Notes under the pieces: model-generated | Told to the model about the DNA's origin: nothing | Seen by the model: only the letters and a program-made list of their open reading frames with translations | Databases searched by the model: none | Origin: Halovivax ruber XH-70 | GTDB lineage: Archaea > Halobacteriota > Halobacteria > Halobacteriales > Natrialbaceae | Length of the DNA stretch: 64,000 nucleotides | Assembly (NCBI RefSeq): GCF_000328525.1 | Contig: NC_019964.1 | Coordinates: forward strand, 1,736,001-1,800,000 | Reading direction: 5' to 3' | Made by a program: the position numbers and the translations under genes | Shown here: positions 14,627 through 38,612 of the stretch, in pieces | Layout of the letters: every line of letters begins with the position of its first letter | Numbering within the stretch: the stretch's first letter is position 1

Positions 14627-15241
14627 ATGTCCGGAGAACAGGTGTTCGTCTCGCACGATCCAGCCGACCTGTCTGTCGTTCAGGAGCTGTTCTCGACGGT
14701 GAAGAACTTCCCGTTCGGGGTGCATCTGGCGCTCGAAGCCGTCGAGTCCGGCCGGAGCCGTGAACGACTGGAAGGCCGGCTGGCGAACAGCGACGTCGTC
14801 GTCGCGGTCCTGACGGAATCGTCCGCGGACAGCAAGTGGATCAACCAGGAAGTCGGCTACGCCATCGCGAAAGGGATCCCGGTGGTGGCGCTGTACACCG
14901 ACCCGTCGCTAGGCGGTGGGTTCCTCGACGGCGTCGAGGGCGTCACACTCGATCGGGATAACTTGACCGAGACCGTCTTCAATCTTCTCAGCCGACTCCG
15001 GGCCGAGCTCGCACCCCTCGGCGCGCTCTCGGTACCGAACTGGTACATCAGGTTCCCCTGCACGCTCGCAGACTGTGGCCACCCGGTAACGCTCGAACTC
15101 GAGGAGGGGCAGACGAAACTCTGGAAACTCCACAAACACGGCCAGTTGCTCGAAACGAGCTGTGACGTCTGTAAGACGAGTTATTACTTCGACCCGGCGA
15201 CCATCGGCTTCGTCAGGCGAGAAGAAGCGACGATCAACTGA
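14627..15241 (+). CDS. TIR-domain protein with C-terminal zinc-ribbon-like domain
   Basis: Soluble protein of 204 residues. Residues 5-125 look like a TIR domain: VFVSHDPADLSVVQEL forms the first strand and helix, SDVVVAVLTESSADSKW the middle, and WINQEV carries Trp71 and Glu75 at the WxxxE position that supplies the catalytic glutamate of NAD-cleaving TIRs. Residues 140-190 have CTLADCGH and CDVCKTSYYF, so Cys145, Cys150, Cys179 and Cys182 could bind zinc. There is no membrane segment. TIRs often act in phage defence or signalling, but no partner (ThsA, SIR2, STING, cyclase) is adjacent. Domain calls are fairly sure; the role is unknown. Confidence 0.8.
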   Translation: MSGEQVFVSHDPADLSVVQELFSTVKNFPFGVHLALEAVESGRSRERLEGRLANSDVVVAVLTESSADSKWINQEVGYAIAKGIPVVALYTDPSLGGGFLDGVEGVTLDRDNLTETVFNLLSRLRAELAPLGALSVPNWYIRFPCTLADCGHPVTLELEEGQTKLWKLHKHGQLLETSCDVCKTSYYFDPATIGFVRREEATIN

Positions 15242-15285: not shown

Positions 15286-15972
15286 TCACTTCAGTCGTTC
15301 GTACGCACCCCTGACGAGTCGGAACGCCTCTCGGGTCCCCGTCGGTCGGTCCGGGTGAGCGTGTTTGACCTGTTCCTGAAATGCCGCACGGATCTCCTCG
15401 GCCGAGGCGTCTTCGTCCACGTCTAAGATCTCTCTGGCATCGACACGCCGCATCGCCACGTCGACGACGATCCCCTCGTCGACGGCAGTCTCTTTGCAGG
15501 TCGGGCAGAGTGATTCGACCCGGTCATCGACGAGCGTGACGCGATACGGTTCCGCACGGATCCACTCACGACAGTGACCGCACAGTCGCTTACTGGGAGC
15601 GATTTCGGTCGAGGAGGTCACCCCGGCGTCGGGGGCCGAACGGGCGTCGGAAGCGGTGGGAGACGAACCGGTCCCCTCGCTACCCGCGTTGGGCTGGTGC
15701 GCCCGACACGCCGAACACAGCGACAGGACGGTGCCGTCCGTCAGGACGACGTCCTCGACGTCGGCCGTCTCGACGGTCGACCGACAGCCTTCGCAGGTCG
15801 CGCTCGCCGTCTCGAGTTCTGCCCGCTCAGCGGCTGCACGGGCGTGTGGCGTACAGGTCGGACAACAGGCAACCTGTGTGCCGTCGGGCATCGAGACGGT
15901 CGTCAACCGTCCGAGCACGACGGACCGGTCGCAGCCGTCACAGCCTTCCCGTCTGTTGTCGGCGACACCCAT
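15286..15972 (-). CDS. J-domain protein with three zinc-ribbon-like repeats
   Basis: Protein of 228 residues built from three similar CxxC-x21/22-CxxC units, with cysteines at 11/14 and 37/40, 60/63 and 86/89, and 131/134 and 156/159. A linker rich in S, T, G and A separates units two and three. The C-terminal 50 residues (EILDVDEDASAEEIRAAF, then HAHPDRPTG) form a short J domain with the HPD motif at 206-208, which stimulates Hsp70 ATPase. The zinc ribbons may bind substrate or nucleic acid. It is not a canonical DnaJ: no G/F region, and the J domain is at the end. It is convergent with the TIR gene, 44 bases apart. Confidence 0.82.
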   Translation of the reverse strand: MGVADNRREGCDGCDRSVVLGRLTTVSMPDGTQVACCPTCTPHARAAAERAELETASATCEGCRSTVETADVEDVVLTDGTVLSLCSACRAHQPNAGSEGTGSSPTASDARSAPDAGVTSSTEIAPSKRLCGHCREWIRAEPYRVTLVDDRVESLCPTCKETAVDEGIVVDVAMRRVDAREILDVDEDASAEEIRAAFQEQVKHAHPDRPTGTREAFRLVRGAYERLK

Positions 15973-16075: not shown

Positions 16076-16507
16076 ATGAACGTGGCTACCGACAATCGCT
16101 GGCCGCCGGTTCGACGCGCCGATCAGTGGCCGCTCGCACTGGACAGTCTCGCCATCGTCGTCCTCACGATGGTCGGTCAACTGAGACACGGCTATACGCC
16201 CCTCGAGTGGCCGATTCGCACCGTCGAGACCATCACACCGTTCGTCCTCGGCTGGCTCGTCTGTGCCGCCCTGCTCGGGCTGTATCGAAACAGACGACGA
16301 CTCACCCTCCTGACGCACGCTCGGGCCGTCCTGGTCTGCTGGCTGGCCGCCACGAACGTGGCGTTCTTGATCCGCGGCCTGCCCATTACCCCCGGCAACG
16401 TGCCCTGGTCGTTCATGGTCGTCATGGTCGGGCTTGGCGCCATCGCTATCCTCACGAGCCGACTGGGCTACGAGTACGTCGTCCGAACGAACGAGAACCG
16501 ACTCTAG
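16076..16507 (+). CDS. DUF3054 family membrane protein
   Basis: Small polytopic membrane protein of 143 residues with four hydrophobic segments (ALDSLAIVVLTMVGQLRHG, FVLGWLVCAALLGLY, AVLVCWLAATNVAFLIRGL, VVMVGLGAIAILTSRLGYEY). This arrangement, and the RTNENRL-type polar end, fit DUF3054. The ATG at 16076 was chosen because earlier in-frame starts lie inside the neighbouring gene on the other strand. It is divergent from the J-domain gene. The function is unknown. Confidence 0.75.
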   Translation: MNVATDNRWPPVRRADQWPLALDSLAIVVLTMVGQLRHGYTPLEWPIRTVETITPFVLGWLVCAALLGLYRNRRRLTLLTHARAVLVCWLAATNVAFLIRGLPITPGNVPWSFMVVMVGLGAIAILTSRLGYEYVVRTNENRL

Positions 16508-38178: not shown

Positions 38179-38612
38179 TCCTCGTCCTCCTCGGACTCGT
38201 CCGTGTCGGTTTCGGCAGCGTCGGTCTCGCCGTCTTCGACGTCGTCGGACTCGTCGCTTTCAGTGTCGTCGGACTCGGCGTCCTCGGCCTCGTCACCTTC
38301 AGCGTCGTCGCCCTCAGCGTCGGGAGTTTCGTCGTCAGCCGACTCGTCTTCGGTGACGGGTTCGGCCTCGGATTCCGAGGTATCAGCATCCTCCTCGACT
38401 GACTCCTCGGAAGCGGAATCAGGTGTCGACTCCTTGCCCCGACGGCCCTCTTCGGTCCACTCCAGATCGCGCGGTTCGCGACCGAGACGGTAGTTCTTCT
38501 CCGCCTTGGAGTCGACGAAGTGGAGCACGGTCCCGTCGGTCCGGACGTACATGATGCCCGTCCCGGGTTCGATCTCCTCTCCCGTGTAGTCACACGTGCG
38601 TTTCTCGACCAT
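38175..38612 (-). CDS. rpl24e: Ribosomal protein eL24 with long acidic tail
   Basis: Zinc-binding large-subunit ribosomal protein. The first 55 residues are a normal eL24: [40 protein letters not shown] and LEWTEEGR. They are followed by about 85 residues made almost only of D, E, S, T, A and G. Total length is 145 residues against about 60-70 usual in archaea. The usual first Cys pair is reduced to one Cys. It starts at the ATG at 38612, two bases after eS28 ends, and overlaps ndk by four bases. Confidence 0.93.

Follow-up and report, generated by a model that had tools for sequence, protein, structure and literature searches.

ZnJ, the name used here for a haloarchaeal family of proteins that combine CxxC finger units with a C-terminal J domain, is best explained as a class C J co-chaperone whose fingers would pick a client and whose J domain would recruit DnaK to it, a reading to which we assign a probability of about 0.6. 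The gene studied lies in the genome of Halovivax ruber (3,223,876 bases), within a stretch of 64,000 nucleotides referred to throughout as the window. It is real and consists of a single open reading frame on the minus strand; the plus strand is not open in frame at 15286-15972. The start methionine is conserved in 33/33 aligned members. The gene and the parts of its protein are arranged as follows:

15286-15972, minus strand: ZnJ gene, stop codon included, encoding a zinc-finger/J-domain protein of 228 residues
15853-15942, minus strand: finger unit 1, residues 11-40, CxxC-x22-CxxC, with a fifth cysteine at residue 36
15706-15795, minus strand: finger unit 2, residues 60-89, CxxC-x22-CxxC, a tandem repeat of unit 1 by cysteine-masked profile
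15592-15696, minus strand: linker, residues 93-127, poorly conserved and differing in length among homologues
15496-15582, minus strand: finger unit 3, residues 131-159, CxxC-x21-CxxC, adjoining the J domain and weakly like units 1-2
15289-15441, minus strand: C-terminal J domain, residues 178-228, matched by Pfam DnaJ and by the 5nro_B profile
15349-15357, minus strand: HPD motif of the J domain, residues 206-208, invariant in 33/33 members

Three units of the form CxxC-x22/22/21-CxxC, with cysteine pairs at residues 11/14-37/40, 60/63-86/89 and 131/134-156/159, precede the J domain, just as an earlier sequence-only reading had described. The linker ahead of unit 3 is a low-complexity segment of about 35 residues; its residues 93-126 have pLDDT below 50 in the full-length structure prediction, which at a mean pLDDT of 53.6 is too poor for use. 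The public annotation of the Natrinema copy is 'J domain-containing protein'.

In the proposed mechanism, the tandem N-terminal fingers, of probable treble-clef type, would choose one particular client, which is most likely a protein or a complex of proteins, while a flexible, fast-evolving linker would connect them to unit 3 and the minimal J domain. This domain would carry DnaK-ATP to the client and trigger ATP hydrolysis through its HPD motif. The case for a co-chaperone comes from an intact J core (HPD and the equivalents of DnaJ R22/R36 and F47) together with the HSP70 gene in the genome, and the class C reading is also supported by the 12 invariant finger cysteines and by the extra tandem fingers of four relatives.

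Finger units: repeats, conservation and fold

Family-wide counts refer to 65 proteins from fetched loci, a subset of the orthologues, comprising 58 loci from the 89 Natrialbaceae genomes with an orthologue and seven from two other families; alignments took 33, 30 or 16 of them. L001 (the same gene as L003), L056 (at a contig end) and two loci encoding the PQQ-Mrr proteins described below (L057 and L077) were dropped beforehand, as were two decaying copies, one shortened (L055, genome G121) and one with an in-frame TGA (L065, genome G052).

The sequence-only reading had proposed that the finger is internally triplicated, and the units were aligned to one another in 61 three-unit proteins, which provide 54 to 57 distinct unit sequences. 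With the four cysteines of each window unit fixed and the rest shuffled, every pair was alike (p=0.0009 for units 1-2, 0.007 for 1-3 and 0.0009 for 2-3). Across the family, such shuffles gave p<0.05 for units 1 and 2 in 61/61 proteins, for unit 3 against unit 1 in 44/61 and for unit 3 against unit 2 in 40/61; hhalign assigned unit 3 probabilities of 88-93% against the other units. With the cysteines masked, the unit-2 HMM scored unit 1 above the 99th percentile of shuffles in 45 of 54 distinct sequences (window p=0.0045) and the unit-1 HMM recognised 24 of 57 distinct unit-2 sequences, but the four tests involving unit 3 recognised 0/57, 3/57, 0/54 and 0/57. Because the likeness of unit 3 is lost once the cysteines are masked, the triplication is partly right only: judged by sequence, the repeat relation of units 1 and 2 is clear under both tests, whereas unit 3, nominally alike with cysteines fixed, is a same-spacing finger whose descent from units 1/2 is plausible. 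Unit number also varies among relatives, with 61 proteins having three units, two having four (G013, G014) and two having five (G001, G006). Given this varying tandem copy number, a J-proximal finger preceded by an expandable N-terminal array describes ZnJ better than triplication.

All 12 finger cysteines, like the HPD motif, are invariant in the 33/33 aligned homologues, and they probably bind zinc. A fifth cysteine occurs in unit 1 of 32/33 and in unit 2 of 27/33 members, the window protein being without the extra one in unit 2. Purifying selection acts on ZnJ, most strongly on unit 3 and the J domain: against the Halovivax asiaticus copy (L003), which is 92% identical, dN/dS is about 0.2 overall (0.042/0.21) and about 0.65 in the linker, unit 3 has dN = 0, and the J domain has the lowest ratio apart from unit 3 (dN 0.017, dN/dS 0.04).

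In a model of residues 8-90 built from a two-sequence alignment (mean pLDDT 76.9), hairpins appear in each of the two units, and in unit 1 the second CxxC is followed by a helix. No Foldseek match to it reached E 0.001; the top row by E-value (0.087) was a plant PHD-like domain, and the rows of highest probability (up to 0.96, identity up to 32%) were ribosomal eL24/RLP24 fingers, several of these chains being confirmed by sequence. Over 31-35 columns, one unit of about 34 residues superposes on them, the best rows reaching 1.4-1.8 A. VIA-align found no clear relative of the fingers model (Z at most 2.7), which is not evidence of a new fold, and a PDB sequence search with the fingers gave a LIM domain at E 0.21 only. 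TRASH-type Pfam families matched some of the 33 members, weakly even at best: ATPase-cat_bd six (best 5.8e-5), TRASH_HVO_1752_C four (best 1.9e-4) and Arc_trans_TRASH one, the window protein reaching 12.3 bits against the last, below the cut-off of 27. PMC4047054 places TRASH, ATPase-cat_bd and L24e in a single clan. The modelled ZnJ fingers likely resemble eL24/TRASH-type treble-clef fingers and would fall in the treble-clef fold class.

This resemblance bears on what the fingers might recognise. The sequence-only reading had suggested RNA or nascent chains. In that case the fingers would attach to rRNA, to mRNA or to the region where nascent chains exit, with the J domain bringing DnaK there. 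The ribosomal protein eL24 contacts rRNA, and the superposition of one unit on its finger favours such a role; yet the Foldseek and VIA-align scores are not significant, treble-clef fingers serve many ligands, and no ribosomal gene adjoins ZnJ. Units 1-2 carry a net charge of -6 (8 basic, 14 acidic), unfavourable for RNA, although haloarchaeal proteins are generally acidic. Direct support for RNA or nascent-chain recognition was not found, and with the weak fold likeness as a lead only, we regard this role as improbable. The genome's only eL24 match lies elsewhere in the window, at about 38430-38600 on the minus strand (G000:C1:1774430-1774600; L120:1501-1671). Of the four finger cysteines it retains one, and T, V and A stand at the other ligand positions.

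The TRASH-type matches and the fifth cysteines point in another direction, to a metal- or thiol-stress co-chaperone whose fingers would sense or trap Zn/Cd or oxidation in a TRASH-like manner, after which the J domain would recruit DnaK to damaged metalloproteins. The zinc domain of DnaJ does have thiol-reductase activity (PMC4428491). Against this stand the lack of the extra unit-2 cysteine in the window protein and the invariant paired CxxC motifs, which also fit a purely structural zinc; neighbouring genes also bear on the matter, as described below.

The J domain and its putative Hsp70 partner

Pfam DnaJ (PF00226) matches residues 181-227 (E=1.1e-8, 35.4 bits against a cut-off of 27.8) and finds the domain in 33/33 members, and the profile match to E. 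coli DnaJ 5nro_B has E=5.4e-10. The C-terminal J domain with HPD, recognised earlier from the sequence alone, is thereby confirmed. It is minimal, the protein ending right after helix III. In DnaJ numbering, the equivalents of HPD, F47, A53 and Y54 are each conserved in 30/30 sequences, and those of R22 and R36 are basic (R or K) in 26/30 and 27/30. The DnaJ residues that contact DnaK are R22, K26, R27, K48 and K51 (PMC8215388). At the K48 and K51 positions, K or R is found in 17/30 and 15/30, and at K26 and R27, R is found in 3/30 each, with His at K26 in 10/30. Since the K26/R27 equivalents are mostly non-basic, ZnJ may bind DnaK weakly or have another partner.

Class C J proteins share only the J domain with DnaJ, at any position (PMC8215388), and J domains away from the N-terminus are typical of this class (PMC8215388, PMC10939069). 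The J domain is the only DnaJ domain that Pfam finds in ZnJ, and its domain order, unusual relative to DnaJ, is explained by this class. A canonical or rearranged class A DnaJ was rejected, with TIGR02349 scoring 27.8 bits against a cut-off of 377 and the J domain being C-terminal.

The genome holds a single HSP70 gene (G000:C1:1859039-1860760, E=4e-242), about 107 kb from ZnJ by coordinates, and no genomic link to dnaK was seen. It also encodes four other J proteins, namely a canonical DnaJ (locus L032) and three more. With an intact J core, one HSP70 and four other J proteins, a specialised Hsp70 co-chaperone, as first proposed from the sequence, is still the best reading. In this reading DnaK would be stimulated by the J domain, and it would be the fingers that select the client, the most economical account of the protein.

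Distribution, loss and genomic surroundings

Orthologues of ZnJ occur in 89/125 Natrialbaceae genomes, including the copy with the in-frame TGA; 106/125 match ZnJ at E 0.001, many through the J domain alone. A profile of unit 3 plus the J domain found both parts in a ZnJ-like protein (E <1e-40) in 81 of 391 class genomes; as counted from the listing, 74 are of the same family, five of genus g42 (family f7) and two of g70 (f10). A search of 294 phylum genomes at E 1e-10 gave no full-length finger+J match outside the host's order; the two out-of-order matches begin at profile position 29 or 37, beyond most of the finger. The search for this architecture in other haloarchaea, which the earlier reading had called for, thus finds it common to many of them, in this family and two more.

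ZnJ was not found in 36/125 family genomes, and the gene is therefore dispensable. Of these genomes, 17 retain the TIR gene that adjoins ZnJ in the window, and in the ten examined (loci L103-L112) tpiA and TIR are in place and ZnJ is gone. Fragments of it remain in L111 and L112, and L105 has a short match that is too weak to count as one. The retention of tpiA and TIR beside such remnants points to repeated loss of ZnJ. A viral or mobile origin was rejected, since the full-length profile found no relative among 73 pattern matches in viral contigs. The unit-3+J profile had two matches there, both J-only; one of the two plasmid records matched holds a full ZnJ gene, on a 987-kb Natrinema plasmid.

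The genes beside ZnJ, in the window and in relatives, are:

14627-15241, plus strand: TIR-domain gene (TIR_2 6.9e-10, ThsB_TIR 2.5e-7), linked convergent neighbour
16078-16507, plus strand: linked divergent gene for a small protein, hydrophobic by eye; the gene in this position in Natrinema CP031304.1 is annotated DUF3054
L094:3000-4772, minus strand: heavy-metal (Zn/Cd group) P-type ATPase, found likewise in L092, L101, L039, L048, L049 and L050

The window copy of the small protein has no Pfam match at E 0.01. Across the 65 loci, the upstream divergent gene belongs to the small (DUF3054) family in 48, is the P-type ATPase in seven and is neither in ten, one of which has just 297 bases of upstream sequence. 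The ATPase (TIGR01525, 380.5 bits against a cut-off of 346; nearest named models Zn/Cd/Pb) lies 166-277 bp upstream of ZnJ in its seven loci, which come from two haloarchaeal families. This adjacency favours the metal- or thiol-stress role, but no such ATPase was found upstream in the other 58/65 loci, the window included, and we hold that role to be unlikely.

The TIR gene belongs to a conserved block (kinase, CDP-alcohol transferase, HTH, tpiA, TIR) that is housekeeping-like and not a defence island; its product, a ThsB-like TIR with C-terminal cysteine pairs, is encoded by a single gene in 104/125 family genomes. Both TIR and ZnJ are present in 87 of the 125 genomes, ZnJ only in two, TIR only in 17 and neither in 19, and the two genes are adjacent and convergent in 82/87, counts that are non-independent because the genomes are related. 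In the five others the genes are separated, with 145-160 kb between them when they share a contig. As an operon partner of ZnJ, the TIR gene is ruled out by its convergent orientation.

This adjacency, together with the loss of the K26/R27 equivalents, could suggest that the J domain is merely a docking fold, or acts independently of DnaK, and that ZnJ serves as a scaffold of zinc fingers, perhaps one connected with the TIR protein. The entire kinase-to-TIR block is itself conserved, however, so that adjacency may be plain inheritance and proves little. The invariant HPD and the low dN/dS of the J domain also argue against a scaffold, as do the five genomes with the genes apart and the relatedness behind the co-occurrence counts, and we find it very doubtful.

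The finger type itself extends beyond ZnJ. A profile of units 1-2 matched 83 of 381 class genomes, and all but three hold ZnJ or pieces of it; the only other place among the matches listed is in G003, and is weak (8.5e-5). In the three exceptions (G296, G400, G404) the finger stands directly before the C-terminal J domain of a PQQ-Mrr protein of about 1000 residues, so that this finger type and the J domain co-occur in more than one gene family. Pfam finds PQQ_2, Mrr_cat and DnaJ in the G296 and G400 proteins; that of G404 was read by eye. Encoded at L057:186-3272 (plus strand), L077:2129-5263 (minus strand) and in L114 (minus strand, 1051-aa frame), these proteins run from a Tat-like N-terminus (by eye) through a PQQ propeller, an Mrr nuclease and one CxxC finger to the J domain, an odd union of nuclease and co-chaperone parts.

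A bolder and tentative view, which we think rather unlikely to hold in full, is that the eL24/TRASH-like finger is a stackable reader, in two, three or four N-terminal copies, of one kind of ligand, giving lineage-specific Hsp70 targeting, with the finger-J module also placed on a PQQ-Mrr nuclease. If so, the ligand might be a site on the ribosome or a protein damaged by metal, and through the PQQ-Mrr proteins chaperone power would reach an effector linked to DNA or to the envelope.

Relation to known systems

ZnJ shares with class A DnaJ a J domain and CxxC zinc motifs, but its order is reversed and it is without the G/F region, the beta-sandwich domains and the four-repeat zinc domain. Human HSC20/HSCB may offer a parallel, since a tetracysteine domain at its N-terminus precedes a J domain; there, however, the J domain is internal, the client domain lies at the C-terminus and the zinc module is single. 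The eL24/TRASH-clan fingers resemble ZnJ in their CxxC, a beta hairpin with a DG turn and a second cysteine pair at the helix start, a local fold match of one unit with no significant sequence or fold match; their second pair is Cx3C where ZnJ has CxxC. The PQQ-Mrr-finger-J proteins carry a related finger immediately ahead of their C-terminal J domain, and differ in their single finger, their size and their propeller and nuclease domains.

Class C J proteins with assorted partner domains are already known, and ZnJ is uncharacterised in the literature searched, where we found no protein in which two to four fingers in tandem are followed by a J-proximal one and a terminal J domain. The literature found says little about class C J proteins of archaea, and a review of haloarchaeal stress proteins names, in the part available, DnaK, DnaJ and GrpE only. 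Like E. coli DjlA and HscB, ZnJ has only the J domain in common with DnaJ, in a free position, with other domains giving specificity. It differs from them in its two to four tandem CxxC fingers and J-proximal finger, has no membrane anchor or HscB C-terminal domain that we could see, and its Hsp70 partner is putative. As a conserved, non-essential protein of culturable haloarchaea whose finger array can be counted, ZnJ would offer a tractable test of client choice by J proteins, and would let one ask whether zinc fingers can select their clients.
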